Below, one piece after another: positions 11,531-33,188 of a DNA stretch of 36,278 nt. The notes beneath the pieces are model-generated. The model had not been told where the DNA came from, ran no database searches, and saw only the letters and a list, made by a program, of their open reading frames with translations. Origin of the DNA: Cellvibrionaceae bacterium (GTDB lineage Bacteria > Pseudomonadota > Gammaproteobacteria > Pseudomonadales > Cellvibrionaceae); assembly GCA_027012915.1 (NCBI GenBank), contig JALUYN010000582.1:1-36278 (forward strand), given 5' to 3'. Made by a program: the position numbers and the translations under genes. Each line of letters opens with the position of its first letter. The stretch's first letter is position 1.

Positions 11531-12484
11531 ATGAGTGATGATTTAAAAGAAAGTGCACTTCACTACCACCGCTACCCAACACCGGGAAAACTGGCGACAC
11601 ACGCCAGCAAACCTTTGGCAAACCAGCGTGATCTGGCTCTTGCCTATTCGCCAGGAGTCGCTTTTGCCTGCCAGGAAATCGTAGACAATCCAGAGTCTGC
11701 GAGTCAGTACACCTCACGTTCTAATCTCGTTGGAGTGATCAGTAATGGTAGCGCCGTGCTTGGACTGGGTAATATCGGCGCGCTCGCCTCAAAACCTGTT
11801 ATGGAAGGCAAAGGGGTGCTCTTCAAACAGTTTGCCGGGCTGGATGTCTTTGATATTGAAATAGATCAGGCCGACCCAGAGAAACTGGTGGAGACGATAG
11901 CCAGCCTTGAGCCCACATTCGGTGCTATTAATCTCGAAGATATCAAAGCACCTGAGTGCTTTATTGTTGAGCAAAAGCTTCGCGAAAGAATGAACATTCC
12001 GGTTTTCCACGATGACCAACACGGAACCGCCATCACCGCCGCCGCAGGCGTGCTCAACGGGCTGAAACTCGTCGGCAAAGATATCGGTCAGGTGAAAATT
12101 GTAACCTCTGGCGCTGGCGCCGCAGCATTGGCGTGCCTGGATCTACTGATAAACCTGGGAGTGCGAAAAGAGAACATTACTGTAACCGACATTTCCGGCG
12201 TGAGTTACAAGGGGCGTAAGGAAAACATCAACCCATACAATAGCCGCTACGCAATCGACACCGACGCGCGTACGCTGAATGATGTTATCGATGGTGCCGA
12301 TATCTTTCTTGGGCTATCCGCGCCAGGAGTACTTAACGGGGATATGGTTAAACGCATGGCTGATAAACCGCTAATTTTTGCCATGGCAAACCCTACCCCC
12401 GAGATCATGCCTGATGAAGCCAAAGCAGCACGCCCCGATGCCATTATCGCCACGGGTAGATCGGACTTTCCTAGGGCCTGTTAA
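11531..12484 (+). pseudogene. maeB: maeB 5' fragment: malic enzyme domain, interrupted
   Basis: N-terminal part of the hybrid NADP-dependent malic enzyme (malate to pyruvate + CO2 + NADPH). It starts at ATG 11531 (MSDDLKESALHYHRYPTPGK), the usual MaeB N-terminus; an open extension to 11390 is hydrophobic and unlike the family. Visible are [38 protein letters not shown], the metal-binding NLEDIKAPECF and FHDDQHGTAITAA, and the cofactor loop TSGAGAAALACLDLL. The frame is normal to residue 314 (GRSDFP), then enters a 265-bp element and stops at TAA 12482-12484 after three foreign residues. The continuation (NQLNNVLCFPFIFRGALD) resumes in the same frame at 12741. Without the 267-bp insertion (element plus duplicated TA) the gene would encode 760 residues, a normal MaeB length. 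Confidence 0.92.
12472..12473. repeat. Target-site duplication TA, left
   Basis: TA directly before the element's GGGCCTG end; the matching TA is at 12739-12740. Removing the element and one TA restores the expected maeB reading TTT-CCT-AAT-CAA. Confidence 0.75.
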
Positions 12485-12738
12485 CACTAATTCTGATACT
12501 TCTGCTGGAGACTATTTTCGCTCCCAGTCAGGCGGTATGAGCGCCATTTAGTTATTCTAAATAAGCGAATTCCAACGCAGCTGGGGGCGAAAATAGGCCC
12601 AGCCCTTCGGGTTGCGTCTCAAATCGCGCCACTCGTTGTTGCTCGTCACTCGTTTAGAACCACTAAACTCACTTCTCGCGCCTAGATTGGCGCGATTTGA
12701 GACGCAACAGAAGCATCAGAATTAGTGTTAACAGGCCC
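12474..12738 (+). mobile_element. Structured MITE-like element, copy 1 (inside maeB)
   Basis: A 265-bp non-coding element bounded by terminal inverted repeats of about 31 bp with one mismatch, beginning GGGCCTGTTAACACTAATTC at the left and mirrored at 12708-12738. It is flanked by a TA duplication. Inside, arm A pairs 12504-12527 with 12581-12603 (one bulged A, one A-G mismatch, one G-T) and carries an apical hairpin 12546-12551/12557-12562. A CCCTTCGGG minihairpin follows at 12603-12611. Arm B pairs 12611-12631 with 12688-12708 perfectly over 21 pairs and carries an apical hairpin 12652-12657/12663-12668. No transposase is encoded, so it must be moved in trans. TA targeting is known for IS630/Tc1-type and for some IS5-type elements; I cannot assign the family. 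Copy 2 is at 32923. Confidence 0.88.
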
Positions 12739-14080
12739 TAATCAACTCAACAACGTACTGTGCTTCCCATTTATATTTCGCGGGGCCCTGGATTGCGGCG
12801 CAACGGCGATTAATGAAGAGATGAAAATCGCCTGTGTTAAAGCCATCGCCGAGCTGGCACACGCCGAAGTTTCGGAAGTGGTGGCCAATGCCTACCAGAA
12901 CGAAACACTAAAATTTGGCCCTGAGTACATTATTCCAAAACCGTTTGATCCAAGGCTTGTTACTGTAATTCCGCCTGCAGTTGCCAAAGCTGCCATGGAC
13001 AGCAACGTTGCCAAAACTCCTATCGTCAATATGTTCGCCTACCAGGACAAATTGAACCGCTTTGTGTTCCGCTCGGGGTCTGTTATGAAAGGGGTGTTCA
13101 ATGTGGTCCGTGAAAACCCGCGCCGCTTGATCTACTCCGGCGGTGGCGACGAACGGGTCTTGCGCTGCATACAAACCCTACAACAAGACGATAGCCTCGC
13201 GCCGATACTTATCGGGCAGAGAGATACGGTAGAGGAAACCATTCGCGAGGTTGGATTGCAGATCCGCATTGGTCGCGATTTTGAGCTAATAGATCCAAAC
13301 GAATTCAATGGCTATTCGGACTTGACCAAGCAATATCACTCAATGTTAGGGCGAGATGGTGTATGGCCTGCAGATGCCGAGGTCATTCTGCGCAATAACC
13401 CGACGGCACTCGGCGCTATGCTTCTTCAGCGTGGTGATGCCGACGCGATGATTGCCGGCCCAAGAGGAAACTTTCAGGATCACTTCAAGCAAATCAAATC
13501 GATCATTGGATTACAGGAAGGCGTTCAATGCCCGGCAGCCATGAATTTGCTGATTCTGGAAAACGGTACCTACTTTGTCACCGACAGCTACATCAACTAC
13601 CAGCCAACCGCGGAAGAAATAGTTGAAATAACCCTCCTCGCTTCTGCACAGGTTCGTAGATTTGGCCTTACGCCCAAAGTAGCCCTGCTGTCGCATTCAA
13701 ATTTTGGCAGCTCGGGGCATCCATCAGCAAAACTGATGAGACGAGCCAAGGAAATCCTGGAGCAGCAAGCTCCAGATCTGGAAGTCGAGGGTGAAATGCG
13801 CACTGATGCGGCCCTTTCTGAAGACATAAGAAACAAGATGTTCCCGAACTCCAGACTCAAAGGCGAAGCCAATCTTTTGATCGCCCCTAACCTGGACGCG
13901 GCGAATATCACCTTCAAAGGAATGAAAGCCATAGGCCGTGGAGTCAGTATCGGTCCGATACTGCTCGGTATGGATAAACCTGTACACATACTGACTCGTA
14001 CAGCCACCAGTAGAGGGACTGTCAATCTAAGTGCTCTGGCCGCCGCAGACGCAGCCTTTAACTCTCAGGTCTTGGTATAG
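12725..14080 (+). pseudogene. maeB: maeB 3' fragment: rest of malic domain plus phosphotransacetylase-like domain
   Basis: C-terminal part of MaeB. Homology resumes at 12741 (NQLNNVLCFPFIFRGALD), completing the malic-enzyme NAD(P) domain (INEEMKIACVKAIAELAH). A linker follows, then the phosphotransacetylase-like (PTA) domain from about 13100 (GVFNVVRENPRRLIYSGGGDERVLRC, MLGRDGVWPADAEVILRNNPTALGAMLLQRGDADAMIAG, KVALLSHSNFGSSGHPSAKLMRRA, GIG-like GRGVSIGPILLGMDKPVHIL). In intact MaeB this domain binds acetyl-CoA as an allosteric effector. The frame is open back to a GTG at 12725 that lies within the element's right inverted repeat, but no Shine-Dalgarno site precedes it, so separate translation is doubtful. 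The fragment lacks the catalytic residues of the malic domain. Confidence 0.9.
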
Positions 14081-14092
14081 GCTTCAATAACG

Positions 14093-14126
14093 AAAAAAGC
14101 GATGTCGTCTGTTCGACATCGCCTTT
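14093..14126. terminator. Bidirectional terminator between maeB and sthA
   Basis: GCGATGTCG (14099-14107) pairs with CGACATCGC (14114-14122) around a 6-nt loop; an A6 run on the left supplies a T-run for the leftward sthA transcript, and CTTTC follows on the right for maeB. Confidence 0.85.
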
Positions 14127-14165
14127 CATTCACACCAATACAACAACCAGAATAATAAGCAAAAC

Positions 14166-15569
14166 TCAGAAGCGATTGGCTCGATTCAAACCCTCCAGGG
14201 CTGCAATGCGATAAGCCTCGGCCATGGTTGGGTAATTAAAGGTGTTCTTCACAAAAAACTTGATGCTATTGGCTTCACCTTCCTGACTCATTATGGCCTG
14301 GCCAATATGAATAATTTCGGCAGCTTCCGCACCAAAGCAATGAATACCAAGAATCTCCAGGGTATCGACGCGAAACAGCAGCTTGAGCATGCCAACGTCT
14401 TCCCCGGAAATTTGCGCTCTTGCGGTATTCTTGAAGAACGCGCGCCCCACCTCATAAGGTATTTTAGCGTCGGTCAATTCTCGCTCGGTTTTTCCAATTG
14501 AACTGATCTCTGGCAACGTATAAATACCAGTGGGCGCGTCGGTAACAAAGCGCACTGTCTGACCACAGATACCGCGGGCACAGGCACGCCCCTGATCCGA
14601 GGAGGCACTCGCCAAGCTCGGCCAGCCGATCACATCGCCCACCGCATAGACGTTCTCCAGATCAGTCTGATAACGCTCATCTACCTTAAGCTGACCACGA
14701 TGATCCGCCTCCAACCCGAGCGCTTCCAGATTCAGATCATCGGTATTGCCCGTTCTGCCGTTGCACCAGAGCAGTACATCCGCACGTATGTGCTTGCCGG
14801 ACTTAAAGTGCATCTGCACACCGTTGTCGTCGGCCACCACATATTCGTACTCCTCGCAGTGACGCACTGTGACGCCATTATTACGCAGGTGATAACTCAA
14901 GGCATCGGAGATTTCATCGTCCAAAAACGATAGTAAGCGATCGCGACCGTTGATCAGATCCACCTTAACATCAAGGCTTGAAAAAATGGACGCGTACTCA
15001 CTGCCAATAACGCCAGCACCATAAATAATCATGGTCCGCGGTGTATGACTCATTTTGAGAATAGTGTCGCTGTCATAGATGCGCGGATGATTGAAATCAA
15101 CATCATCGGGGCGATAAGGACGAGAGCCGGTGGCAATAATAATATCCTTCGCCGTTATGTATTCAATTGCACCGTCGTCCAGACGAATCTGCACTCGGTT
15201 TGAATCAACGAAAGACGCTTCCCCGGTATGAACAGTCACGCGGTTGCGCGAATAGACCCGGGTATACATATCCACTTGTTTGGGAATGACCTGAGAAGCG
15301 GCCTCGAGGATATCCGGATAGGACAACCAGCGCGGCTCGCTGATGGTTCGAAACAACTTTTGGCTGTTGTAGCGTATCAGTTGCTTAACTGCATGACGCA
15401 GTGACTTTGAGGGGACAGTACCTTTATGGGCGCAGTTGCCGCCCAGCATATCATGGCGTTCCACCATGCCAACATTGAGCCCGCTTTTGACTGCAGCCAT
15501 CGCTGCGCCATTGCCCGCAGGCCCCGTTCCAATTACCAGCAGATCGTACGAATACTCCGCCTTGCCCAT
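14166..15569 (-). CDS. sthA: Soluble pyridine nucleotide transhydrogenase SthA
   Basis: A 467-residue FAD flavoprotein that passes reducing equivalents between NADPH and NAD+ in the cytosol. The FAD-binding segment is [22 protein letters not shown] (about 9-30). The redox-centre region reads [13 protein letters not shown]: Cys46 is kept while the partner Cys of the disulfide-reductase family is Thr51, the hallmark of SthA rather than a lipoamide or glutathione reductase. The second nucleotide-binding fold starts at [21 protein letters not shown], and the C-terminal dimerisation domain ends [21 protein letters not shown] 15569 is preceded by AAGGGG at 9-nt spacing. It converges on the broken maeB gene, a notable pairing since MaeB makes NADPH and SthA consumes it. 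It lies 49 bp after nqrM on the same strand and may be read partly from the nqr operon. Confidence 0.95.
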
Positions 15570-15618
15570 GTATTATTTCCCCTTCTATTGGGCCAACAAA
15601 CAGGCCCGATGATTATCC

Positions 15619-15849
15619 TCACTTTTTGCTCGCATCATAGGCCAGTTCGGATGTCGCAGGCTGATCCTGCTGCTCTTCGCACTTATTCGGGTCTCCACCG
15701 CAGATATCACAGGTGTAGTCCTTCTCACCCAGAGCCGCACCCACGCCACCACAGGAGCCACTGATAGGCTTGCGCCCCATAATGACACCCACAGACATGG
15801 CCACAACAACCAACAACAGTCCAACGAAAGCAAAAATTAATGTTTGCAT
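15619..15849 (-). CDS. nqrM: Na+-NQR maturation factor NqrM (DUF539)
   Basis: A 76-residue protein with one N-terminal membrane helix (MQTLIFAFVGLLLVVVAMSVGVIMG) and a cysteine cluster: GSCGG then TCDICGGDPNKC. NqrM is thought to deliver iron to the cysteine cage formed by NqrD and NqrE. GAGG lies 5 nt before ATG 15849. It is the last gene of the nqr-apbE cluster, 41 bp after apbE, the position it holds in other gammaproteobacteria. The C-terminal tail (EEQQDQPATSELAYDASKK) is polar and poorly conserved. Confidence 0.93.
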   Translation of the reverse strand: MQTLIFAFVGLLLVVVAMSVGVIMGRKPISGSCGGVGAALGEKDYTCDICGGDPNKCEEQQDQPATSELAYDASKK

Positions 15850-15890
15850 AACAGCCTCTGGATTCGGACGGTTTTTAAGTGTTCTTCCTT

Positions 15891-16943
15891 TTAAAGAGGC
15901 ACCTCAGCTTTAAAAGCATCGGAGCTGAACTCTTTGAAACCGCTCTCAGTATGAATTATAAAAAATGCCGGGATTTTATGGCTATTAGCCAATAGTAGTG
16001 CCTTCTCGTACCCCATCACGTTAAACGCCGTAGCTAACGCATCAGCACGGGCACAAAGAGGGTCCAATACAGTCACCGATACCAGATTGTGCTGTACCGG
16101 ATATCCCGTGCGTGGATCGATAGTATGACTGTAGCGCTGCCCTTCCAGTTCAAAAAAGTTGCGATAATCTCCGGACGTCGCTATCGACGTATTGGATAGA
16201 CTCACTGCCTTCTGAACCAGTTTCTCCAGGCTCGCTACGGGCGTCTCTATGCCGATACGCCAGGGTTTTGCATGTTTGTTGGTGCCGGAAACCCGAATCT
16301 CACCACCGATCTCTACAAGAAAGTCATTGTACCCTTTCTCGAGCAACAACTCAGCCAGTTTGTCGACACCATAGCCTTTGGCCACTGCACTGAGGTCGAT
16401 GTAGACGGGCTTCGCCCTTTTGACCTGACGAGTATCAGTTTGCAGCAATACGTGCTGTGCGCCAACGCTCTGGCGGAGCTCGTTGATTTCTTGTTCGGTG
16501 GGAATCTGGGTGATAGAAAAGTCTGGACCAAAGCCCCAGCGATTGACCAACGGCCCGACAGTAATGTCAAAGCCGCCTTGCGACAGTTTGGTGACGTCCT
16601 GACTCAACACCAAAACCTGGAACAAATCATTGGATATGGTCTGCCAGCTACCCGGAGCAGATCGATTTAATGTCGACAGTTCCGAATCTTCGATATAAGT
16701 GGACATGGACTGATTGATTAAGCGCAACTGCTTATCCACGGCCCCTTGCAGTTCCTGCTCTTGAGTCGGTGTCAGCACCGCTACCAGGGAAATGTTATAG
16801 GTGGTGCCCATGGTCGCACCAGACAGATGGGTTGTGTCTCGCGGTGCATCACCGCAACCAGCCAGAAATAATAAAACAACGCCCAACAAAAAAGAGGCCA
16901 GCAAAGCTGACCCCTTTCTCGTATCGTTATTGAGATAACTCAC
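15891..16943 (-). CDS. apbE: FAD:protein FMN transferase ApbE
   Basis: Attaches FMN covalently to threonine residues of NqrB and NqrC in the periplasm, using FAD as donor. The 350-residue lipoprotein has a signal peptide with lipobox LAGC (Cys30). Family motifs follow: SGATMGTTYNISLV (about 41-54), VGPLVNRWGFGP, YIDLSAVAKGYGVDKLAELL, VEIGGEIRVSG, HTIDPRTGYPV and LCARADALATAFNVMG. The start is GTG 16943, five nt after the nqrF stop, so the gene is translationally linked to the nqr operon. The target motifs it would modify are visible in NqrB and NqrC of this window. Confidence 0.95.
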   Translation of the reverse strand: MSYLNNDTRKGSALLASFLLGVVLLFLAGCGDAPRDTTHLSGATMGTTYNISLVAVLTPTQEQELQGAVDKQLRLINQSMSTYIEDSELSTLNRSAPGSWQTISNDLFQVLVLSQDVTKLSQGGFDITVGPLVNRWGFGPDFSITQIPTEQEINELRQSVGAQHVLLQTDTRQVKRAKPVYIDLSAVAKGYGVDKLAELLLEKGYNDFLVEIGGEIRVSGTNKHAKPWRIGIETPVASLEKLVQKAVSLSNTSIATSGDYRNFFELEGQRYSHTIDPRTGYPVQHNLVSVTVLDPLCARADALATAFNVMGYEKALLLANSHKIPAFFIIHTESGFKEFSSDAFKAEVPL

Positions 16944-16948
16944 AACGA

Positions 16949-18172
16949 TTAGCCGCCGAAATCATCCAACAGAATATTTTCGTCTTCAACGCCGAGATCT
17001 TTCAACATCTTGATCACAGCGGCGTTCATCATTGGAGGCCCACACATGTAGAACTCACAATCTTCTGGGGCCGGGTGGTCTTTCAGATACTCATCGTACA
17101 GAACATTATGGATAAAGCCGGTCAGGCCTTCCCAGTTGTCCTCTGGCTGAGGATCCGACATGGCCACATGCCATGTGAAGTTTGGATTCTCATTGGCCAG
17201 CATGTCGTACTCGTCCTGATAGAACAGCTCTTTCAAAGAACGAGCCCCATACCAGAAAGACATAGTGCGATCAGACTTCAGACGCTTAAGCTGATCGAAG
17301 ATATGGGAGCGCATTGGCGCCATACCCGCACCACCACCAACAAATACCATTTCGTTATCGGTATCTTTAGCGAAGAACTCACCAAATGGTCCGAATACAG
17401 TGATCTTGTCACCTGGCTTCAGACTGAAAACGAAAGAAGACATCTGACCTGGAGGAATGCCCTGAGAGCCTGGAGGTGGCGTTGCAATACGAATATTGAA
17501 CTTAACCACACCCTTCTCTTCCGGGTAGTTAGCCATGGAGTAAGCGCGAATGATCGGCTCGTCTACCTTGGACTCCAGATTGAAGAAGCCAAAGTGCTCC
17601 CAATCGCCACGGTACTGATCTTCAACATCAAAGTCAGAGAATTTAACGTGGTGCGCCGGGGCTTCCAGCTGAACGTAACCACCAGCACGGAAGTCAACAT
17701 TCTCGCCTTCAGGCAGCTTCAGAGTCAGTTCTTTAATGAAGGTAGCAACGTTCGGGTTGGACTCAACGGTACACTCCCACTGCTTAACACCAAAGACATC
17801 GTCTTCAACTTCAATTTTCATGTCCTGTTTAACGGGAACCTGGCAAGACAGACGCCAGCCTTCGTTAGCTTCACGCTTGGTAAAGGCACTTTCCTCTGTA
17901 GGCAGCATGGAACCACCACCAGATTCAACGACACATTTACACTGCGCACAGCTACCGCCACCACCACAGGCAGAAGGCAGGAACAGACCGTTAGCAGCCA
18001 GGGTCTGCAGCAATTTGCCACCGGCCGGTACAGTCAGTGTTTTCTCACCGTTAATTTCGATACTTACATCGCCGGAGTTAACCAGCTTGGCACGCGCGCC
18101 CAAGATCACAAACACCAACGCAAGCACGATGGCGGTGAACATGACCACACCTAACACAATTGTCATATCCAT
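16949..18172 (-). CDS. nqrF: Na+-NQR subunit F (NADH-oxidising)
   Basis: Electron entry subunit of the sodium pump: takes electrons from NADH through FAD and a [2Fe-2S] centre. The 407-residue product has an N-terminal membrane helix (about 4-26), then a plant-type ferredoxin domain with Cys69, Cys75, Cys78 and Cys110 ([14 protein letters not shown] ... SCQ), one residue offset from the Vibrio cholerae ligands. The ferredoxin reductase part contains [11 protein letters not shown] (FAD), [17 protein letters not shown] (NADH), [13 protein letters not shown] and ends LLDDFGG, the usual C-terminus. GAGG lies 10 nt before the ATG. It sits last of the six structural genes. Confidence 0.97.
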
Positions 18173-18191
18173 GTTTTGAATACCTCGCTGA

Positions 18192-18788
18192 TTACAGGTC
18201 GATGCCGCCGAAGGACATAAAGCCCAACGACATCAAGCCAACAGTGATAAAGGTAATACCCAGGCCCTGCAGGCCAGCAGGCACATCACTGTACTTCATC
18301 TTTTCGCGGATACCTGCCAGCGCAGTGATCGCCAGAGCCCAACCCACACCAGAGCCAATACCGAAAACAGTAGATTCAGCTAAATTGTAGTCACGCTCCA
18401 CCATGAACAGTACCGCACCCATGATGGCACAATTCACGGTAATCAGTGGCAGGAAAACACCCAGCGCGTTGTACAGCGCAGGCATAAACTTATCCAGAAC
18501 CATTTCCAGAATCTGTACCATCGCCGCAATCACGCCTATGTAGGTAATCAGGCCCAGAAAACTAAGATCCACACCTTCTACCAGAGCATCTGGTGCAAGA
18601 ATGTTGACGTACAACAGATTGTTAACAGGTACGGTGATACCCAGTACCACAACAACCGCAATACCCAGACCCAATGCTGCTTCTACTTTTTTTGAGATGG
18701 CGATAAAAGTACACATCCCCAAGAAGAAACTCAGTGCCATGTTGTCGATAAATATCGAGCGAACAAAGAGACTCAGATAATGTTCCAT
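18192..18788 (-). CDS. nqrE: Na+-NQR subunit E
   Basis: A 198-residue membrane subunit with six hydrophobic segments, homologous to NqrD in inverted topology. Cys26 ([10 protein letters not shown]) and Cys120 (ITVNCAIMG) are the two ligands it contributes to the intramembrane iron centre shared with NqrD. Starts at 18788, three nt after the nqrD stop. Confidence 0.97.
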
Positions 18789-18791
18789 TGC

Positions 18792-19445
18792 TTAAGCCTC
18801 CTTCGCTGTATTCGGGCAGATTTTAAATTCAGACTCTTCATTCTGTTCTGGTTTGGCTGCGCGAATAGCCCAGATAATCAAACCGATCAGGAAGAAAGCA
18901 CTTGGTGGCAGTAGCATCATACCGTTGGAAACATACCAACCGCCTTCAGTGGCCAGTGGCAGAATTTCGAAACCGAGAAGCTTACCCGATCCGAACAACT
19001 CTCTCAGAGTGCCCAGAATAATCAGGAAGAAGCTATATCCCAGACCGTTACCTATACCATCCAAGAAGCTGGCACTTGGCCCATTCTTCATGGCAAAGGC
19101 TTCAGCACGCCCCATTACGATACAGTTGGTAATGATTAGTCCTACGAATACGGACAACTGCTTACTGATATCGTAGGCCACCGCTTTCAGTACCTGATCC
19201 ACCACGATTACCAAAGAGGCAATAATGGTCATCTGTACAATAATGCGAATGTTGTTTGGAATCTGATTGCGTACCAGTGATACAAACAGGTTAGAGAACG
19301 CTGTTACAGTGGTCAGTGCAATACACATTACCAAGGTAACCTTGAGTGAACTGGTTACCGCCAGAGCAGAGCAGATACCCAGGATTTGTAATCCGATCGG
19401 GTTATTGTCCAGTACGGGTTTAAATAGCAGCTCTTTCACTTTCAT
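18792..19445 (-). CDS. nqrD: Na+-NQR subunit D
   Basis: A 217-residue membrane subunit with six hydrophobic segments and the family N-terminus [22 protein letters not shown]. Cys25 and Cys108 ([17 protein letters not shown]) are its share of the NqrD/NqrE iron site. It starts two nt after the nqrC stop and ends three nt before nqrE, so the genes are tightly packed. Confidence 0.97.
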
Positions 19446-19447
19446 GA

Positions 19448-20212
19448 TCAGGCCTCCCCTTTCTTCAGGTTGTTCAGGAAGCCAGCATAGCCATTATGGC
19501 CCATCCAGAACTTGATCAGGTTATCAACACCACGACTGGTCAAAGTCGCACCAGACAGACCGTCAACCTTGTTGATATCACCAGCAGGTGCTGCGCCCTT
19601 GGTAATGGTAATAGCTACGGAGCCATCAGCAGCGTAAACTTCTTTACCTACCCAAAGAGCTTTCCAGCGCGGGTTATCCACTTCACCACCCAGCCCCGGA
19701 GTTTCACCGTGCTGGTAGAAGCCAAGTCCCACAATGGTGTTTCCATCCGCTTCCAGGGCCATAAAGCCGTACAAGGTGGACCACAGACCGTAACCTTTAA
19801 TAGGCAGAATCAGTTTGTCCAGCTGACCATCTTGCTCAACCAGATAAACTAGGCCAACGTTTTCCTTACTACCAATTTTAGCGATATCGGTGTCACCATC
19901 GAGCTTAGTAGAAAGCGCTGGATCTTTAGCGGCCTTCTGTTGGTCGTAATCTTCGATTGCAATAGCGTCGGTAAATTTACCGCTGCTGAAATCGATGGCT
20001 TTAGTAGTCACAGATTTGAATTGCTCTTCTACTGCAACACCTTCTTCGTACAGACCAGCGGCTTGCAGAATATTGCGTTTAAAGTCACGTGCCTTGTTGA
20101 CTTCTTGCGCAGGACGCAGCATTACAGCAGCGGTCGATACAACGATCGAGCAGACAATACAAAGCGCCAGTGCAACACCAATAGTTTTTCCAATAGTATC
20201 TTTATTAGCCAC
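19448..20212 (-). CDS. nqrC: Na+-NQR subunit C (covalent FMN)
   Basis: A 254-residue subunit with one N-terminal membrane helix and a periplasmic FMN-binding domain. The flavinylation motif [13 protein letters not shown] places the FMN-bearing residue at Thr225, the same number as in Vibrio cholerae. I choose GTG 20212 ([10 protein letters not shown]) over the longer frame to 20257 because a GGAGG lies 7 nt upstream and the family begins there. This start overlaps the nqrB end by 8 nt. ApbE encoded in the same operon supplies the flavin. Confidence 0.96.
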
Positions 20213-21398: not shown

Positions 21399-21401
21399 AC
21401 C

Positions 21402-23013
<1,612 letters not shown>

Positions 23014-23231: not shown

Positions 23232-23252
23232 GTGTCGCGATTAACAAAGGTG

Positions 23253-24704: not shown

Positions 24705-24874
24705 TGTCTAGGTACCTTCAGTTGAAGTCAATTTAGGGGGTTACCACCTCAGATTCCGCCCCTCTTGGGCAGGCCACCATGAAATGGGGGCGCTATTATC
24801 GTTGCAAGCTTAGGCAGGCGCAAGAACCAAGATCAAAAAACGCCCAATTGCCACAAATTTTTCATAAACAGATG

Positions 24875-25558
24875 TTATAGGGGAATCAAAGTCATGCTCA
24901 CCACTGAGTGAGCCACAGTATTTATGGCCCGCTGACTTTTGCCGGCGATTATGACAGCCATCATATCCTGATTGGCAATCATCTTGCCCAGCAACCTCTC
25001 AAAACTCAGGTTGGCTTGCCTGCCCTCAAGGTGATTGGAAAGGATCAGGGGTTGACCACGCGCATCGATGCGAGATCGCAACAACCACGCCACCACCTCG
25101 AGGTTGCGGGCGCTGTGGTAGAGCTTCTGCTGGTCAAGCTCGTCAAACATGTAAAACTCATGTTTTCCGCCGTAGGATTCATGCAACATATCACTAATCC
25201 CCAACATCAGCGCAAACACTCTGTCCCCAGAATAGTCACTATCAAAAGCAAGTCGGATAGCCTCGATGCCACGACTGCCGCTTACCGCTCGCAGTGACAC
25301 TGCGTCATACTCCTGTGTAGCAAACTGGCGTTCGCGCAACGACAGGCTTATCCCTGATTCACGCCTTAATTCGCGGGGATTACGCTTATAGAGCTTAACC
25401 AAAAGCTGCGCCGTCATATCCGTTGCCATACGCCTGTGGGCGTCAGCGACCAAATCTATGTCTGACTTTGCCAACCCTTTTAAAGAGACCCCATTAGGGG
25501 AATTTGAGGCACACCCACACACCAGTAGCAAGAGGGCCAAGCCCAACAGCCTTCCCAT
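24875..25558 (-). CDS. Predicted lipoprotein of unknown function
   Basis: Not recognised. From ATG 25558 it encodes 227 residues with a lipoprotein signal (MGRLLGLALLLLVCGCASN, probable lipidated Cys in the VCGC box). The mature part is soluble and largely helical, with KSDIDLVADAHRRMATDMTAQLLVKLYKRNPRELRRE, FALMLGISDMLHESYGGKHEFYMFDELDQQKLYHSARNLEVVAWLL and a C-terminal LLGKMIANQDMMAVIIAGKSQRAINTVAHSV. A start at 25621 would give a 21-residue basic pre-sequence and is possible. It is divergent from mfd with under 100 bp between starts. It may be outer-membrane anchored, since the residue after Cys is not Asp. Confidence 0.7.
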   Translation of the reverse strand: MGRLLGLALLLLVCGCASNSPNGVSLKGLAKSDIDLVADAHRRMATDMTAQLLVKLYKRNPRELRRESGISLSLRERQFATQEYDAVSLRAVSGSRGIEAIRLAFDSDYSGDRVFALMLGISDMLHESYGGKHEFYMFDELDQQKLYHSARNLEVVAWLLRSRIDARGQPLILSNHLEGRQANLSFERLLGKMIANQDMMAVIIAGKSQRAINTVAHSVVSMTLIPL

Positions 25559-25655
25559 ATTTCTCGACGCTGCTCTAACAAACACGTTCCGCCCTACTGC
25601 TTTCACCGCTACAATAGCCATCACTTGAAATACGATCCCTGATTTATCCCGCTTT

Positions 25656-28600
25656 ATGGCTTCCAACTCCAGCATTTTTGTTTTCCCACCACAGATTACC
25701 AACAGCGCTCTAGAACCCGGTGACAAACACCAGTGGGGCGATCTTACCGGCGACAGCCAAACTTTGGCGATCTACGAATCCGCAGCCCAACACGACAGCC
25801 TCTCGGTTGTTTTATGCCCCGACACACAAACCGCCCGGGATATCGAAAGCGCGCTCAACTTTTTTTTCAGCGATAGCGCTGTCGAAGGTGACACCCCAAC
25901 GGTACTCAGTCTGCCGGATTGGGAAACCTTGCCCTATGATCACTTTTCGCCACACCAGGACATCATCTCTGAGCGCATGCTGACTCTTTATCGACTGCCA
26001 CAAATGCGTCGAGGCATTTTGATTCTGCCAGTCAGCACCCTAATGCACCGCCTGCCACCAGCCACCTTTTTAGCAGGAAACAGCCTGGTTTTAAAACCCG
26101 GCCAGGAATTTGTGATTGACACCATGCGCGCTCAACTGGAGAACGCAGGCTACCACTGCGTCGATACCGTCTACGAACACGGCGAGTTCGCGGTGCGAGG
26201 AGCCCTGGTGGACATCTTCCCGATGGGTAGCGATACCCCGTTTCGCATTGACCTTTTCGACGATGAAATCGAGTCGCTGCGCACCTTTGACCCGGAAACC
26301 CAGCGCACCGTCGACAAACTTGAGAAAATCGAACTGTTGCCCGCCAAGGAATACCCGCTCGACAGACTGGGCATATCCCGGTTTCGCGACAACTGGCACG
26401 CGCGCTTCGATGTTGACCACAAAGCGTGCCCCATCTATCAGGACATCAGTAATGGCATTAGCCCAGCGGGCATTGAGTACTACCTGCCGCTGTTCTACGA
26501 ACAGTGCAGCACTCTGTTCGACTATTTACCTGCAGACACCCAATTTCTGACCGTAGGTGCCATACCAGCGGCCACAGAACACTTTTGGAGCGAAGTGACC
26601 GAGCGCTATGACAGCCTTTGCGGCGACGTGCAACGGCCGATTCTCAAGCCTGCGGAGATGTTCATTCCTTCGGAAGACATTTTCCAGCAGCTCAACCACT
26701 ACCCTCGTACTTCGCTCAATCATGAACGTCTCATTGAAAGTCAAGGTAAGTGGAATCTACCCACCGAGCCGACACTGGATGTTGCGGTGGATTCCAAAGC
26801 CGAGTCTCCACTGGCCAAACTCGAGAACTTTCTCAATCACACGCCGACGCGAGTGCTGTTCTGCGTAGAATCGGCTGGACGACGCGAAGCCTTGCTGGAA
26901 CTGCTGCAACGGATCAAGGTTTCCCCCTTTCAACCCGAGAGCTGGCAACACTTCCTAAGAGAAGAAGACGCCACTAGCGTAATCATTTCTGAGTTGAGTC
27001 ACGGTTTTAGCCTGCCCGAGGCCAACCTCTGCGTACTCACGGAAAACGAGATCTTCGGTGCACGTATTCGCCAGCGCCGGCGCCGACAAAAGCCCACGGA
27101 GCAAAACGAGAATGCCATTCGCAATCTCACCGAGCTCACCATAGGCTCGCCAGTAGTACATATTGATCACGGCGTGGGTCGCTACCTTGGCCTGGAAACC
27201 ATTAGCCACGATGGTGATACCAACGAGTTTCTTACCCTCGAGTATGCCAATGGTGCCAAACTCTACGTGCCGGTATCGAGCCTGGATTTGATCAGCCGCT
27301 ATTCCGGTGCCGACCCAGACCACGCGCCACTGCACAAACTCGGCAGTGAGCAGTGGCAAAAAGCCAAGAAAAAAGCCGCAGAACAGGTACGAGACACCGC
27401 GGCAGAGCTGCTGGATATTTACGCCAGACGCGCCGCTCGCAAAGGACATGCCTTTGCAGAGCAGCGAGATGCCTACCAGCGATTCGCCAACGACTTCCCC
27501 TTCGAAGAAACAGTAGATCAGGAAAATGCCATCGCCGCAGTCTGCAAGGATATGTACTCCTCACAACCCATGGATCGCCTGGTATGTGGTGACGTCGGCT
27601 TCGGTAAAACAGAAGTGGCCATGCGCGCGGCATTTATCGCCGCATACAGCGGCAAGCAAGTAGCCATGCTGGTACCCACCACCCTTTTGGCACAACAACA
27701 CTTCGAAAATTTCCGTGATCGCTTTGCCGACTGGCCCGTGAGCATTGAAGTGATATCACGCTTTAAAAGCGACAAAGAAGTGAAAGCCATCCAGAATCGT
27801 CTGAGTGAAGGCAAAGTGGATATTTTGATCGGCACCCATCGCCTGTTGCAGTCGGATCTCAATTACAAGAGCCTCGGTCTACTGATCATCGACGAAGAGC
27901 ATCGCTTCGGCGTCCGTCAAAAAGAGCGTCTCAAAAGCCTGCGCTCCGAGGTAGATATTTTGACGCTTACCGCGACACCTATTCCTCGAACCTTGAACAT
28001 GGCCATGTCCGGGATTCGCGATCTGTCGATCATTGCCACGCCGCCCGCGAAGCGACTGTCAGTAAAAACATTCGTCAGACAGTCAGAGAGCAATATGATC
28101 AAGGAAGCCGTTTTGCGTGAGATTCTACGCGGCGGCCAAGTGTACTACCTGCACAACGAGGTCAGCTCCATTGAGAAGACCGCCCGGGAACTTGAAGAGC
28201 TTATTCCGGAAGCTCGTGTGGGCATTGGCCACGGACAAATGCGAGAACGCCAGCTTGAAGAAGTCATGTCCGACTTTTATCACAAGCGCTTCAATGTACT
28301 GGTGTGCACAACGATTATTGAAACGGGGATTGATGTTCCTAACGCCAATACAATTATCATTGATCGCGCAGACAAATTCGGGCTCGCACAGCTTCACCAG
28401 CTACGCGGTCGCGTAGGTCGCTCTCACCATCAGGCCTACGCCTACCTGCTGACGCCACATAAAAAGGCAATGACAAACGATGCTATAAAACGCCTGGATG
28501 CCATCGCCCAAACCACCGATCTTGGCGCAGGCTTTACACTGGCAACCCACGACATGGAAATCCGTGGTGCCGGCGAGCTCTTGGGTGACGAACAAAGCGG

Positions 28601-29147
28601 TCAAATGCAAGCCGTCGGCTTCACCCTATATATGGATATGCTGGACCGCGCAGTAAAAGCCATCAAAGACGGCAAGACACCAAATCCGGAAGAAGCAATC
28701 GACACAGGCATCGATATCAACCTGCGCATTCCTGCGCTTATACCGGATGATTTCTTGCCCGACGTTCACTCTCGGCTGATGATGTACAAGCGCATCTCCG
28801 CTGCAGATAGCGATGAAGCACTCAGGGAGTTACAAGTAGAAATGATTGACCGATTCGGCCTGCTACCCGACCCCTGCAAGAATCTTTTCAAGGTTGCCAG
28901 CATTAAACTTCGAGCCCAAACATTGGGCATCAAAAAGCTGGAAGCAGGAAGCAATTCCGGCAAGATGGAGTTTGGCGCTGTTACCCAAGTGGATCCCCTC
29001 ACAATTGTTAAAATGGTACAGACTAAACCTCAGCACTATCGCCTTGAAGGCGCCAGCGCACTGAAGTTCGACATTGAGATGGACAGCCCGCAGGCCCGTA
29101 TTGATAATGTGGTCAATCTGCTTGAATCTTTGGCGCAAAGCGCCTGA
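25656..29147 (+). CDS. mfd: Transcription-repair coupling factor Mfd
   Basis: Displaces RNA polymerase stalled at DNA lesions and recruits UvrA. The 1163-residue protein has UvrB-like domains at the N-terminus (SLPDWETLPYDHFSPHQDIISERM), the RNA polymerase-interacting CarD-like domain near 495-560 (GSPVVHIDHGVGRYLGLE), and the RecG-like translocase. Walker A GDVGFGKT is at 645-652, the DEEH box at 746-749 (LLIIDEEHRFG), then LTATPIPRTLNMAMSG, and motif VI region QLHQLRGRVGRS. The C-terminal TRCF domain follows (LRIPALIPDDFLPDVHSRL). Length is normal for the family (about 1150). The Shine-Dalgarno site before ATG 25656 is weak. csiV follows 23 nt after the stop and is probably co-transcribed. 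Confidence 0.97.
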   Translation: MASNSSIFVFPPQITNSALEPGDKHQWGDLTGDSQTLAIYESAAQHDSLSVVLCPDTQTARDIESALNFFFSDSAVEGDTPTVLSLPDWETLPYDHFSPHQDIISERMLTLYRLPQMRRGILILPVSTLMHRLPPATFLAGNSLVLKPGQEFVIDTMRAQLENAGYHCVDTVYEHGEFAVRGALVDIFPMGSDTPFRIDLFDDEIESLRTFDPETQRTVDKLEKIELLPAKEYPLDRLGISRFRDNWHARFDVDHKACPIYQDISNGISPAGIEYYLPLFYEQCSTLFDYLPADTQFLTVGAIPAATEHFWSEVTERYDSLCGDVQRPILKPAEMFIPSEDIFQQLNHYPRTSLNHERLIESQGKWNLPTEPTLDVAVDSKAESPLAKLENFLNHTPTRVLFCVESAGRREALLELLQRIKVSPFQPESWQHFLREEDATSVIISELSHGFSLPEANLCVLTENEIFGARIRQRRRRQKPTEQNENAIRNLTELTIGSPVVHIDHGVGRYLGLETISHDGDTNEFLTLEYANGAKLYVPVSSLDLISRYSGADPDHAPLHKLGSEQWQKAKKKAAEQVRDTAAELLDIYARRAARKGHAFAEQRDAYQRFANDFPFEETVDQENAIAAVCKDMYSSQPMDRLVCGDVGFGKTEVAMRAAFIAAYSGKQVAMLVPTTLLAQQHFENFRDRFADWPVSIEVISRFKSDKEVKAIQNRLSEGKVDILIGTHRLLQSDLNYKSLGLLIIDEEHRFGVRQKERLKSLRSEVDILTLTATPIPRTLNMAMSGIRDLSIIATPPAKRLSVKTFVRQSESNMIKEAVLREILRGGQVYYLHNEVSSIEKTARELEELIPEARVGIGHGQMRERQLEEVMSDFYHKRFNVLVCTTIIETGIDVPNANTIIIDRADKFGLAQLHQLRGRVGRSHHQAYAYLLTPHKKAMTNDAIKRLDAIAQTTDLGAGFTLATHDMEIRGAGELLGDEQSGQMQAVGFTLYMDMLDRAVKAIKDGKTPNPEEAIDTGIDINLRIPALIPDDFLPDVHSRLMMYKRISAADSDEALRELQVEMIDRFGLLPDPCKNLFKVASIKLRAQTLGIKKLEAGSNSGKMEFGAVTQVDPLTIVKMVQTKPQHYRLEGASALKFDIEMDSPQARIDNVVNLLESLAQSA

Positions 29148-29170
29148 TTAACGACAAATGAAATATACCG

Positions 29171-30142
29171 ATGACTCCAGAATTTGCTATGAATAGGCTC
29201 GTGACATTCCTCAAGAAAGCACGACAGCCTCTATCACTGATCGCTGTGATGACCATACTGTGGACTCACAACACACTGGCGCAAAACACCAATACTGGTG
29301 AGAGCAGTATCGACTCAACACAACCCTCCTCCGAGCAAACTAATGACCACGGTAACGAAGGTCGCTGGTTTCAGGTAGAGATGATCGTATTTGCGCAAAA
29401 TCCAAATCAACGTCAACAGGAAACCTGGCCCACCAATATCGCTATTGCCTACCCCCCAAATTGGAAGCAGTTAGAAGATCCCGAACAGACCGAACACGTG
29501 GATGTAGAAGCGCTGCTGGAAACAGCAGACTACTATCAGCTACCAATTGAACAACGATTGCTCAATAACAACATTCGCGATTTAGAGCGCTCTGTAGGGC
29601 ACCGCGTGCTATTTCACGAAGCCTGGCGCCAACAGGTCTGGGGTGCCGACGAAGCCCCATCGCTTCTGATCAACGGCGGCAAACAGTACGGAGAACACTT
29701 TGAGCTGGAAGGCAGCGTTCAGCTCAGCGTCGCGCGCTACCTTCACCTTAAAACCAATCTTTGGTTTACAGAATTTCACCACAACTTTGGCCAGGAAGCG
29801 TCGGACTACCCGCCCTTGCCTGCCGTTCCAACCCGAGATACACGTGATGAAGCACAAAGTGCCACCGAACATCACCTGCCATCCTGGGATCAATTGCAAC
29901 TGATCAGCAGCGAATACGAAAAAATTCTGGATCAACCCTACGTCAGCTCTCGCATTACAACCATGCAGCAAAAACGCCGAATGCGAAGCAAAGAAATTCA
30001 CTATATCGACCACCCGGTCATTGGTATTCTGATCTATATATTGCCCTACGAGCTGCCAGAAACGGAACCTGAGTCCGAGGCGGAAATAGACAATAGTATG
30101 ACAGGCGATACGATCCAAGATCAGTCGCAGCAAACGCCATAA
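29171..30142 (+). CDS. csiV: CsiV-family peptidoglycan-binding protein
   Basis: A 323-residue exported protein. The N-terminus has a signal peptide (LSLIAVMTILWTHNTLAQ), then a low-complexity Ser/Gln/Asn linker to about residue 58, then the CsiV core starting RWFQVEMIVFAQNPN, a family hallmark. Further on are HEAWRQQVWG, GSVQLSVARYLHLKTNLWF, and SKEIHYIDHPVIGILIYILPYEL. In Vibrio cholerae CsiV binds peptidoglycan and supports cell-shape integrity. The acidic tail (ETEPESEAEIDN) is variable. Starts at 29171 and 29189 are both possible; neither has a strong ribosome site. It lies downstream of mfd, an arrangement also found in Pseudomonas. Confidence 0.85.
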   Translation: MTPEFAMNRLVTFLKKARQPLSLIAVMTILWTHNTLAQNTNTGESSIDSTQPSSEQTNDHGNEGRWFQVEMIVFAQNPNQRQQETWPTNIAIAYPPNWKQLEDPEQTEHVDVEALLETADYYQLPIEQRLLNNNIRDLERSVGHRVLFHEAWRQQVWGADEAPSLLINGGKQYGEHFELEGSVQLSVARYLHLKTNLWFTEFHHNFGQEASDYPPLPAVPTRDTRDEAQSATEHHLPSWDQLQLISSEYEKILDQPYVSSRITTMQQKRRMRSKEIHYIDHPVIGILIYILPYELPETEPESEAEIDNSMTGDTIQDQSQQTP

Positions 30143-30171
30143 AAAAACGCGGGTAATTCCCGCGTTTTTTT
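30141..30171. terminator. Bidirectional terminator between csiV and the cold-shock gene
   Basis: A7-CGCGGG (30141-30153), loop TAATT, CCCGCG-T7 (30159-30171). Perfect 13-pair hairpin with T-runs on both strands, between converging genes. Confidence 0.95.
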
Positions 30172-30203
30172 ATGCATTCGGATCTCTATGATCAGACAGT
30201 AGG

Positions 30204-30419
30204 CTAGGTTAAGCAGATTACCTTTTCTGCCTGCAGGCCTTTCTCGCCGTGCTGCAGATCGAACTCTACCGACTGACCTTCGTTGAGAGATCGGTACCCC
30301 TCACCTTCTATATTTCGGTAGTGAACAAAAATATCATCGGGGCTTTCTTCCCGAGTGATGAAACCGTATCCACGAGCATTATTAAACCATTTAACGATGC
30401 CAGTCTGTCGATCAGACAT
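30204..30419 (-). CDS. Cold-shock domain protein (CspA/CspD-like)
   Basis: A 71-residue single cold-shock domain that binds single-stranded RNA/DNA. RNP1 is RGYGFI and RNP2 is DIFVHY; the N-terminus [15 protein letters not shown] and [22 protein letters not shown] are standard. The [13 protein letters not shown] segment is closer to CspD/CapB-type proteins than to CspA, but the sub-class is not certain. GAGGT lies about 8 nt before ATG 30419, at the end of a long A/T-rich leader (about 30420-30480) as is common for csp genes. The 277-bp stretch 30420-30696 up to kdsB otherwise shows nothing I can identify. Confidence 0.93.
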
Positions 30420-30696
30420 TACAAATTTACCTCTTCGCTATTATTTTTATGATGTTGTTGATTGTTATTATTTTTTGAACTGCAAAATGCGCATAAGCGA
30501 CAACGCCTGCGCAATGCAAGAGACAACATTTTTATGACAAATATCGCGACATGTCCAGAAGAAATTAATCCGAACTAGGTTTCACCTTCAGACCGGCGAT
30601 GCCAAACCGGTGGTGCTAACAAGACAAACAGCCCACTATGAGTTCTCCCCATCACTCAGAATAGGTTGCGGAGCTTCTCAACGAGCCTGCCGAGCA

Positions 30697-31473
30697 CTAG
30701 TCCTCAAAAACAGAGCGAATGCGCGCCAGATCATCAGGTGTATCGACACCAGACGGGACAACTGCCGAAGCCTGAGCTACATGGATACGATGACCGTTCC
30801 ACATAATCCGCAGTTGCTCTAAGCATTCCAGCTCCTCGAGCATTGCAACTGGCCAGCCCTTAAATTCATTCAACAGCCCCACACGATAGGCGTAGATACC
30901 AATATGGCGCGCAAAAGCGGGCTGCATCGGCAGGATTGCTTTGGTGGTCGCAAACGTATCACGCGGCCAGGGAATTGATGCTCGACTGAAGTAGAGCGCA
31001 AAACCGTTTTTATCCATCACTACTTTAACGGCATTGGGGTCGGTAAACTCATCTACCGCTTCTATTTTTTCGCACAGAGTGGCAACACTGGCTTCTTCCA
31101 TGCGCGACAGATTTTGCGCCACCTGGTCGATTACTTCTGGCGGAATCAGCGGCTCATCGCCCTGAACATTGACCACAATGTGATCATCGGGCAATCCGAG
31201 AAATTCCACCACCTCCTGAATTCGATCAGTGCCGGACTCATGCTCAGAAGATGTCTTACAGCATTCGCCTCCAAAACCCTGCACAGCATTGATAATGCGC
31301 TGATCATCGGTGGCGACAATCACTCTGGCAGCGCTGCTTTTCTGTGCCTGCTGATAGACATGCTGAATCATAGGCAAATCGTCAATCAACTCCAGAGGCT
31401 TGCCTGGCAAACGGCTCGAATCGTATCGAGCTGGAATAACGACGGTATATTCGACTTCGGCGCTGCGGCTCAT
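30697..31473 (-). CDS. kdsB: 3-deoxy-manno-octulosonate cytidylyltransferase KdsB
   Basis: Activates Kdo with CTP to CMP-Kdo for lipopolysaccharide inner-core synthesis. The 258-residue protein starts [27 protein letters not shown], the nucleotide-binding N-terminus. Other family segments are [46 protein letters not shown] and [12 protein letters not shown]. The ATG at 31473 overlaps the lpxK stop as ATGA, supporting this start over the longer frame to 31548. It is the last gene of the exbB-exbD-lpxK-kdsB unit. Confidence 0.97.
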
Positions 31474-32468
31474 GTTTGTTTCTCCAGAAAATCGTCCAAC
31501 TTCTTCCAAAAGGAAGGTGGTAAATCGGAAGTAACCAGCAGACTCCACCAGTTATCGTCGGCAAACCCGCGGCACTTCACTGCATCTTTTGTCGTCATCA
31601 ACAAGCATTGTCCCTTAGCGTACGCCAGGTCACTAGCCGTAAACGGGTGGTGATCTGGAAAAGCCCTGGTATCAGGTCGCAACCCCAATTCAGACAAGGT
31701 ATGAAAAAAACGCTGCGGATTGCCAATGCCTGTTACCGCCAGAACTTTCCCATCAGTCTGCTCTTTGATAAACGGCATAGGTTTTTGCTCCTCCCGCCCG
31801 GCAACGTGCTGCCATAAGGTTGGCTTTAGCTGCATCGAGTGACTGTCAAGCCCCTCAACAGACAGAGACTGACTGCCATTAACAACAACACAATCTACCG
31901 AGTGCAGGCGCGAAGGTGGCTCCCGCAGCGGTCCCGCAGGCAGACAAAAACCATTTCCCATTTGTCGTTGACCATCGACCACACAGATCTCAAATTGACG
32001 AGCCAGGCGATAGTGTTGCAACCCGTCATCACTAAGAATGACATCGCAACCGAAATCTTGTATCAGCTGTCGGGCTGAATTTACCCGATCAGGCCCCACC
32101 ATAACGGGACAACCCGTGGACAAGGAAATCAGCAAAGGCTCGTCACCACAGACCGCAGGATCAGAATCAAGAGTAACACTGAAAGGGTAAAAAGGAGCGC
32201 TGCCACCGTAGCCGCGGCTGATAACGCCGGGCTTATATCCCCGCTCTTGTAAATATTTCACCAACGCAATGATCAGCGGTGTCTTACCGGTCCCACCAAT
32301 AGCGATATTGCCAACAACGATAACCGGCACCTCAAGTGGAACAGCTTTGTGCGATAGCGTGGCACGACGCCAACTCGCCAAAAGCGACAATAGCCAAGCC
32401 AGCGGCAGCAACAAGTACAACCACCAGCGGCCCTCATACCATGCGGACAAAATGCGCTGTTGCATCAA
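31470..32468 (-). CDS. lpxK: Tetraacyldisaccharide 4'-kinase LpxK
   Basis: Phosphorylates the lipid A precursor disaccharide at the 4' position on the inner-membrane face. The 332-residue protein has an N-terminal membrane anchor ([21 protein letters not shown]) and the P-loop [12 protein letters not shown] at 53-64. Also visible are [32 protein letters not shown] and [13 protein letters not shown]. The start lies 27 bp after exbD, and the end overlaps kdsB by 4 nt. The initial Met-Met pair leaves the exact first residue uncertain. Confidence 0.96.
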
Positions 32469-32495
32469 GAATTTCCGAGCATTGACTGCAAAATA

Positions 32496-32918
32496 CTATG
32501 GTTCGTCGCTAGGCTTGCGCGTCGTCATACTGAGATGCACAAAACCGGCCTGCCCTGCGGCATCCATTGCAGTTATCACCGACTGGTGTGGCGTTTTTGC
32601 ATCAGCGGTTATCATTAACGGACGATCAAGATTGCCCTCGGCAATTTTCAGCAATGCAGCCTTGAGGGTTTTACCCTGGTTATTGACGAGCGCCTTAGCG
32701 TTCACCGAATAGTTGCCCTGAGCATCAATCAGAATTTCCAGCGGTTCCGCCTGCTTCACTCCGGGCTCACCCACCGCTTCTGGAAGATCGACCTTAAGAT
32801 GAGTTTCTTTTGTGAAGGTGGTTGAAACCATAAAGAAAATCAGCAGAAGAAACACCACATCAATCAACGGTGTCAGGTTAATACTGTCTTCCTGATTTGA
32901 TTGCCGTTTGAACTTCAC
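32496..32918 (-). CDS. exbD: Biopolymer transport protein ExbD/TolR family
   Basis: A 140-residue protein with a short cytoplasmic N-terminus, one membrane helix (LIDVVFLLLIFFMVSTTF) and a periplasmic domain. Asp20 in LTPLIDVVF is the conserved proton-path residue. With ExbB it forms a proton-driven motor in the inner membrane; the lpxK-kdsB context is the common ExbBD-like pair beside lipid A genes. I choose GTG 32918 (VKFKRQSNQEDS) because family members begin there; an in-frame GTG at 32936 would add six residues encoded by the adjacent MITE end. The only ribosome site for 32918 (AGG, 7 nt upstream) lies in the element's terminal repeat. Confidence 0.9.
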   Translation of the reverse strand: MKFKRQSNQEDSINLTPLIDVVFLLLIFFMVSTTFTKETHLKVDLPEAVGEPGVKQAEPLEILIDAQGNYSVNAKALVNNQGKTLKAALLKIAEGNLDRPLMITADAKTPHQSVITAMDAAGQAGFVHLSMTTRKPSDEP

Positions 32919-32922
32919 AAAA

Positions 32923-33188
32923 GGACCTGCCCACACTCTGTCAATTGTCGCTGCTGGAGACCATTTTTTCGTCCAGCAAGGCGGAGGGAACGCTGTGTAG
33001 TAATTCTACATGAGTGAGCGACAACGCGACTGGGCGAGAAAATGGTCCCAGCCCTTCGGGTTGTGGCTAAAAAGCCGCCACTTGTCGTTGCTCGTCGTTT
33101 ATTTGGACAAACCAAACTACTCTCCTTGCGCCTAAATTGGCGGCTTTTTAGTCACAACATCGATAATTGACAGAGTGTGGTCAGGTCC
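32923..33188 (+). mobile_element. Structured MITE-like element, copy 2 (between exbB and exbD)
   Basis: A 266-bp element with terminal inverted repeats of about 28 bp and two mismatches, beginning GGACCTG(C/A)CCACACTCTG at 32923 and mirrored at 33161-33188. It is flanked by AA on both sides, possibly a drifted or alternative 2-bp duplication. Arm A pairs 32953-32976 with 33030-33052, with a single bulged A at the same place as copy 1 and two G-T pairs; apical hairpin 32996-33000/33006-33010. CCCTTCGGG at 33052-33060. Arm B pairs 33060-33080 with 33138-33158 (21 pairs, one G-T), apical hairpin 33102-33106/33112-33116. The architecture equals copy 1 although much of the stem sequence differs. 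No coding capacity. It lies opposite in orientation to the exb transcript. Confidence 0.87.

Follow-up and report, generated by a model that had tools for sequence, protein, structure and literature searches.

Which kind of element keeps a folded interior while its letters change, and what does the fold serve? The question is raised by a 36,278-bp stretch of DNA from a Cellvibrionaceae bacterium (contig JALUYN010000582.1 of assembly GCA_027012915.1; hereafter the window), in which two elements of 265 and 266 bp reside at 12474-12738 and 32923-33188, with the coordinates and sizes given in a preliminary description made from the sequence alone. By ends, target and copies the element is a miniature inverted-repeat transposable element (MITE), and what is new in it is the conserved folded interior. 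Our reading, to which a probability of roughly 55% is assigned, is that of a non-autonomous MITE of about 265 bp, inserting at YTAR with duplication of TA, moved in trans by a transposase of the IS427 type, and having a folded interior that matters when it is copied. Selection on the fold is supported by the variation analyzed below; for its mechanism, we infer that DNA is the folding molecule. The features of the two copies are as follows.

12474..12738, plus strand: element copy 1 (MITE), 265 bp; terminal complementarity at 24 of 24 positions, TA on either side
12472..12473: left TA of the target duplication (CCTA/GGGCC)
12739..12740: right TA of the target duplication (GGCCC/TAATC)
12474..12507, plus strand: left arm of the terminal stem, copy 1; first 19 nt as in the left end of L288, a Pelomonas insertion sequence (IS)
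12705..12738, plus strand: right arm of the terminal stem, copy 1; inverted repeat 12472-12507 / 12705-12740, 94% complementary
12512..12596, plus strand: arm A, copy 1; outer stem 12512-12527 / 12581-12596, head and apical hairpin
12603..12611, plus strand: CCCTTCGGG minihairpin, the centre of copy 1
12611..12708, plus strand: arm B, copy 1; outer stem 12611-12634 / 12685-12708, head and apical hairpin; inverted homologue of arm A
32923..33188, plus strand: element copy 2, 266 bp; diverged ends GGACCTG / CAGGTCC, no TA flanks
33052..33060, plus strand: CCCTTCGGG centre, copy 2

The fold and its two halves

The layout reported earlier (terminal stem, arm A, CCCTTCGGG minihairpin, arm B) is present in the minimum free energy (MFE) folds of both copies, at -144.3 kcal/mol for copy 1 and -141.9 kcal/mol for copy 2. 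The corresponding z-scores are -17.1 and -13.6, none of 200 shuffles being as stable for either copy; with DNA folding parameters both strands of copy 1 also fold strongly (z -16.5 and -14.3). The copies are 68% identical. Their MFE folds have 88 pairs in common, 61 identical, 24 changed on both sides and three on one side, and all 27 changed pairs still pair. Because common pairs were drawn from MFE folds, and are hence paired by construction, the relevant part of this comparison is the permutation of the 3' letters of the changed pairs, by which full pairing was reached in 0 of 20,000 trials. Inside the arms the recount gives 12 double and three single changes, rather than the 11 and two first reported; 12 further double changes, outside that earlier count, lie in the terminal stem. 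Another 27 pairs occur in one fold only, 17 of which can pair in both copies, nine in one, the last being gapped.

Relatives were initially found by distant BLAST on plasmids (Halomonas, Methylophaga, Magnetococcus); species genomes were then scanned with a pattern made of two loops, CCCTTCGGGTTG and TTGCTCGTC, which detected at least 120 stretches, a few being chance or truncated matches. Conservation of the two loops is partly a matter of choice, since both formed the search pattern; of the plasmid elements detected by BLAST, all three have the CCCTTCGGG centre and one has TTGCTCGTC. The matches listed include Thiodiazotropha, HTCC5015, Alcanivorax, Gilvimarinus, Porticoccus, Woeseiaceae, Nevskia, Pelomonas and Roseateles, as well as metagenome-assembled genomes labelled Planctomycetota, Verrucomicrobia and Peregrinibacteria. 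These labels may be binning errors, although the Planctomycetota genome contains five divergent matches and the Peregrinibacteria genome six. The pattern was found in 11 of 369 genomes sampled from the class, three of them previously known carriers, and in a sample of 294 Planctomycetota in the centre genome only. Two matches in viral contigs were both judged to be chance, and phage sequences gave no match to the pattern. No paper describing this element family was recognised in the open-licence literature searched.

The first loci comprised 124 pattern matches, of which 105 passed a loose end test and 19 failed; a further 23, which did not combine a length of 258-272 bp with the expected centre, were dropped, and 82 full-length elements remained. 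With further loci the final set holds 124 unique full-length elements, both window copies counted, and 88 are exactly 265 bp long. A ceiling of 90% identity gives 37 representatives, with a median pairwise identity of 0.65, copies in HTCC5015 being 96-100% identical among themselves. The 37 representatives and the Halomonas element were aligned by sequence alone, the consensus structure was obtained by RNAalifold, and covariation was measured against a null of 40 alignments generated by simulation on the tree, each column keeping its substitutions. Nineteen of 89 structure pairs covary at E<0.05; 17 of 89 exceed the maximum of the simulated null, vs. 0 of 34,102 other pairs. Covarying pairs are located in the terminal stem, in both arms, in the head of arm A and in both apical hairpins. 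A multi-copy alignment devoid of covariation had been named in the preliminary description as the outcome contradicting the fold; 19 pairs covary instead. The proposal that the internal fold, and not the ends only, is maintained is borne out by this result, by the pair changes between copies 1 and 2, and by the stem and loop variants described below.

The right half, read as its reverse complement, is homologous to the left half: a left-half profile matches 31 of 38 right halves with E values from 6.7e-18 to 0.0023 (a small set, compared unshuffled). Judged by its sequence, the element is an inverted dimer, near-symmetric about CCCTTCGGG, and in the new interior this centre is framed by two long hairpin arms, each the inverted homologue of the other. 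Among the folds listed, two Methylophaga elements (L082 and L121) have as MFE structure a single long hairpin, arm being paired with arm. The two strands of the centre (window 12603-12611 and 33052-33060) read CTTCGG and CGAAG. CUUCGG is a very stable RNA loop; CGAAG is a very stable DNA loop, able to extrude under supercoiling.

Ends, target sites and mobiliser

Elements and ISs of the IS5 family share the terminal sequence GGGCCTGTTAACAC (or GGGCGTGTTMACAC). These ISs belong to what we take to be the IS427 type, a name based in part on the tables of PMC3281130. The preferred target of the elements is YTAR, TA being present on either side: the left flank is YTA in 63 of 80 elements, the right flank TAR in 65 of 80. 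In HTCC5015, one copy at a contig edge being left out of the comparison, TA is found on both sides of 36 of 39 copies. Elements lie between genes in 49 of 60 evaluable cases (20 of the 80 were too near a locus end to be placed), and 333 of 534 random positions are genic.

An IS with such ends was found in Pelomonas among DDE_Tnp_1 loci. This IS, L288, measures 823 bp, is flanked by TA, coincides with copy 1 over 19 nt at the left end, and has two open reading frames (ORFs) matching PF13340, DDE_Tnp_1 and NCBIfam transpos_IS5_3. Among ten related plasmid transposase regions, seven (L298-L303 and L305) feature such ends and TA flanks, and three (L304, L306 and L307) lack such ends. When elements were compared with the ends of eight ISs, 97 of 124 had no more than two mismatches in 14 nt at both ends, and 46 of 124 an exact 14-nt match to some IS end at both; permuted left ends never came closer than five mismatches. 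An IS of this type, 834-835 bp long and flanked by TA, resides at two places in a Thiodiazotropha genome which bears 265-bp elements (G313, the genome of L013); one of its ends is TAGGGCCTGTTAACA, the other TAGGGGGCGTTAACA. An IS with such ends is also found in G005, in which the single element of the 265-bp type has other ends. IS5/IS427 entries in the tables of PMC3281130 are 832-865 bp long, mostly with 2-bp repeats.

The element is a MITE by its ends and TA flanks, its YTAR target, its copy number and the IS5/IS427-type ISs that match it, and the earlier view that the internal fold removes it from this class is not supported; copy 2, flanked by no TA, lacks the target duplication. The sequence comparisons leave an IS5-family (IS427-type) transposase well supported as the probable mobiliser. 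Elements have in common with MITEs of this family the terminal sequence, the TA duplication, the many copies, no coding capacity seen, and a transposase presumably acting in trans. They differ in the fixed-size interior with two covarying arms, inverted homologues of each other, and no IS was found from which this interior could derive by internal deletion.

Other sources were considered. IS630/Tc1 was rejected, PF13358 being found in three of 12 bearing genomes vs. three of 14 controls. Y1 is present in 10 of 12 bearing genomes vs. five of 14 controls, but the 20 Y1 loci read, out of 23 matches, contain none of the element's marker motifs; RAYT-type mobilisation was likewise discarded. DDE_Tnp_1 occurs in nine of 12 bearing genomes vs. 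nine of 14 controls. A near-identical IS pair in HTCC5015 (L287, L293) has ends different from those of the element. The search for an autonomous element sharing these ends covered G001 and G002, where, among the matches listed, ends are paired at short distance or solitary; in G003, in G004 and around 17 solitary ends, traced over as much as 4.5 kb, no partner at transposase-sized distance was seen. Solitary ends, TAGGGCCTGTTMACAC followed by unrelated DNA, are many in bearing genomes (L156-L175, L209-L221), as if palindromes had been excised.

Variation in stems and loops

Changes private to one copy were taken as arisen after insertion, variants shared by at least two copies as having spread. 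In HTCC5015 (39 copies) private changes fall evenly on the 194 stem columns (22 changes) and the 71 loop columns (10 changes; p=0.53), but variants shared between copies, four in stems vs. 10 in loops, are seven times rarer in stems (p=0.0004). The same was seen when seven further families were pooled, each with at least four copies, five smaller families and copies diverged by >15% being dropped: private changes per column are 0.089 in stems vs. 0.112 in loops (p=0.18), shared variants 0.030 vs. 0.067 (p=0.0013). Depletion of shared stem variants is clear in four of the seven (G1, HS, G7 and G4). As private changes are even and shared variants rarer in stems, the fold seems to be selected at propagation, though single families vary.

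Stem pairing could also persist with no selection on the fold, if the palindromes corrected themselves by template switching or arm-to-arm conversion, changing both sides in one event. Quasi-palindrome correction is a known process; 34 of 37 double changes in the seven families are Watson-Crick, and one HTCC5015 copy carries an A-T to T-A swap. Departures from stem pairing within genomes are yet mostly one-sided, 36 vs. nine in HTCC5015 (eight of the nine being one shared variant) and 147 vs. 37 in the seven families, which makes efficient self-correction unlikely. In addition, 10 copies carry one-sided intermediates of the HTCC5015 shared variant, and self-correction alone cannot keep non-complementary heads and a fixed length. 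Such an origin of the pairing is improbable.

Several results weigh against a selected fold mobilised by an IS5-family transposase. The pooled depletion in stems, computed as an interaction, has p=0.066; shared rates are about equal in the RK and G8 families and reversed in G3, so that three of eight families show no stem depletion. One terminal-stem pair in HTCC5015 carries a one-sided change in 10 of 39 copies, and in seven of these the change is the same. An arm is partly or wholly missing from several forms: a 226-227-bp form at eight sites in T. endolucinida, one-armed forms of 174 and 175 bp in Alloalcanivorax (one without arm B, one without arm A, one site each), a one-armed form of 168 bp at one site in HTCC5015, and one copy reduced almost to its ends. 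The 226-227-bp form itself possibly spreads. As for the mobiliser, 16 of 124 elements have at least five mismatches from any IS end read. IS5_3 transposases at E<=0.001 are present in seven of 19 bearing genomes vs. eight of 14 controls, the match passes the cut-off in three of the 19 only, and in one of these three (G007, L330) the IS lacks the ends in question; ISs with such ends were not found in most of the 19, being seen in G313 and G005. The transposase may come and go by transfer.

The junction of the 226-227-bp form is occupied by a REP-like repeat, and the form could recur by recombination between two such repeats, since both repeats occur in one full element. Thiodiazotropha elements contain, inserted in their arms, a REP-like palindrome some 27 bp long (CGCCCCGAAGGAAGTGCCCTTGGGG), which raises their length to 292 bp and more (L010, L017, L024, L170 and others). 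One-armed derivatives L220, L329 and L174, one lacking arm A and two arm B, carry deletions near the arm bases. In Gilvimarinus (L202-L208) longer relatives measure about 313, 347 and 362 bp, several having the centre replaced by another hairpin; of three long forms folded, two lack the CCCTTCGGG centre.

Flanking genes, related repeats and the folding molecule

The two copies have the following neighbours.

11534..12473, plus strand: 5' part of maeB (malic enzyme domain), split by copy 1
12741..14080, plus strand: 3' part of maeB (rest of the NAD-binding domain and phosphotransacetylase domain)
32496..32936, minus strand: ExbD/TolR-family gene (PF02472); the start of the listed ORF is within copy 2, another GTG immediately outside it
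33192..33821, minus strand: MotA/TolQ/ExbB-family gene (PF01618), ending 4 bp from copy 2

Copy 1 is a precise 267-bp insertion interrupting maeB: deletion of 267 bp (the copy and one TA) reopens the frame, and the joined product aligns without gaps across the junction in the one PDB alignment obtained. An in-frame CCT codon flanks the 267-nt insert on either side (12466-12473 and 12736-12743). That maeB stays active, the insert being bypassed by ribosomes or removed from the mRNA, would suit a length divisible by three, the CCT on both sides and a fold joining the two sides. The CCTA repeat is however explained by the TA duplication, an element end CCC and a target starting with CCTA, and relatives are mostly intergenic, as counted above; the codons are probably a by-product of target and element end, and bypass deserves almost no credit. 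Copy 2 occupies the whole gap between the ExbB-like and ExbD-like genes; the two genes lie on the minus strand, and co-transcription of the copy with them is probable. No ORF of at least 80 aa is found inside either copy, and the element thus has no transposase gene.

Small repeats of other bacteria share single traits with the element. Correia repeats (CREE/NEMIS) likewise have a TA target, long terminal repeats and a hairpin core, and, by eye, a hairpin head of about 50 nt whose base carries CAAGGC and CAACGC, but they have one core rather than two arms, and other ends. A relationship suggested by CAAGGC and CAACGC failed in profile tests in both directions: element-half profiles reached at best E 0.049 on CREE-like loci (L240), and a CREE profile at best 5.6 bits on 76 element halves, shuffles scoring up to 8.3 bits. 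Sequences that resemble the core of Correia elements (CAAGGCG..GCAGACAGTACAANTAGTACGGCAAGGCG..GCAACGC) but have different ends were observed in Burkholderiales-order genomes (L226-L241), and a Correia element sequence matched at E<=0.001 in 46 of 300 genomes, well beyond perfect Correia matches. REPINs, inverted hairpin pairs moved in trans by RAYT and near-identical within a genome, resemble the element in these respects; the TA duplication and DDE-type ends set it apart. ERIC (enterobacterial repetitive intergenic consensus) sequences are also small, palindromic and intergenic, with TA at the ends in a table of PMC2229807; the one ERIC locus read (L242) gave no profile match, and a relationship was rejected.

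Of the three roles put forward in the preliminary description, functional RNA, folded single-strand DNA and protein scaffold, the first, if meant for one strand, turns out the least likely, and the other two are favoured. A functional RNA made from one strand, its mobility being incidental, would agree with the covariation and with the CUUCGG loop, and RNAalifold pairs hold 151 G-T vs. 74 A-C, a count by a method which favours G-U; with head-to-head pairs included, G-T exceeds A-C in 23 of 34 sequences (p=0.058). In pairs defined strand-neutrally, without G-U, the two are close, 70 G-T vs. 63 A-C outside head-to-head pairs and 97 vs. 77 including them, and the consensus sequences of eight families hold 478 Watson-Crick, eight G-T, 11 A-C and 20 other cells. 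With no clear excess of G-U over A-C in these pairs and sequences, one-strand RNA appears unlikely; the two halves are inverted homologues, the whole window has no match in Rfam 15 at the gathering threshold, and copies mostly interrupt nothing and sit in many unrelated places. Taken together, this explanation has very little to commend it.

An RNA working in either orientation need not prefer G-U, a need for both strands abolishing the preference, and RNA is therefore kept among the explanations. The fold would then provide RNase III sites, stabilisers or insulators softening the insertion, as for Correia elements, which are bound and cleaved by RNase III according to excerpts of PMC2649163. 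RNA folds are very stable on both strands of the element, and copy 2, as noted, is probably co-transcribed with its neighbours. Resident copies, however, mutate in stems as in loops, whereas stems would be protected if the fold were of benefit where the element sits, and Rfam is silent on this RNA too. Action as RNA of either strand is on balance unlikely.

The favoured alternative is that the fold acts as DNA, joining the element ends. An element inserting at YTAR with duplication of TA would be moved by an IS5-family, IS427-type transposase supplied in trans, whose own 0.8-kb ISs share the element ends, and the fold would matter when the element is copied. It would most likely form in DNA, either as single-strand hairpins at the replication fork or by extrusion under supercoiling, starting at the central minihairpin. 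A long perfect palindrome forms hairpins on replicating DNA of E. coli, as stated in an excerpt of PMC4245961. Folding would pull both ends into one short duplex, helping the transposase to pair and cut them, and the conserved arm heads are putative sites for a further protein. A more demanding version is advanced tentatively: these repeats would be a class of elements that an ordinary DDE (IS5/IS427-type) transposase can move only as folded DNA, in a fixed multi-arm hairpin shape maintained through covariation like that of an RNA gene, the heads being read by a further protein.

MITEs are usually viewed as two ends and a dispensable middle. Here the middle keeps size and pairing across lineages despite changed letters, and selection can be distinguished from decay inside a single genome. 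Correia and ERIC repeats can also be compared with this family; no mobilising transposase is named for them in the excerpts of PMC2649163 and PMC2229807. If folding is indeed needed for movement, DDE transposition would have a structural checkpoint.

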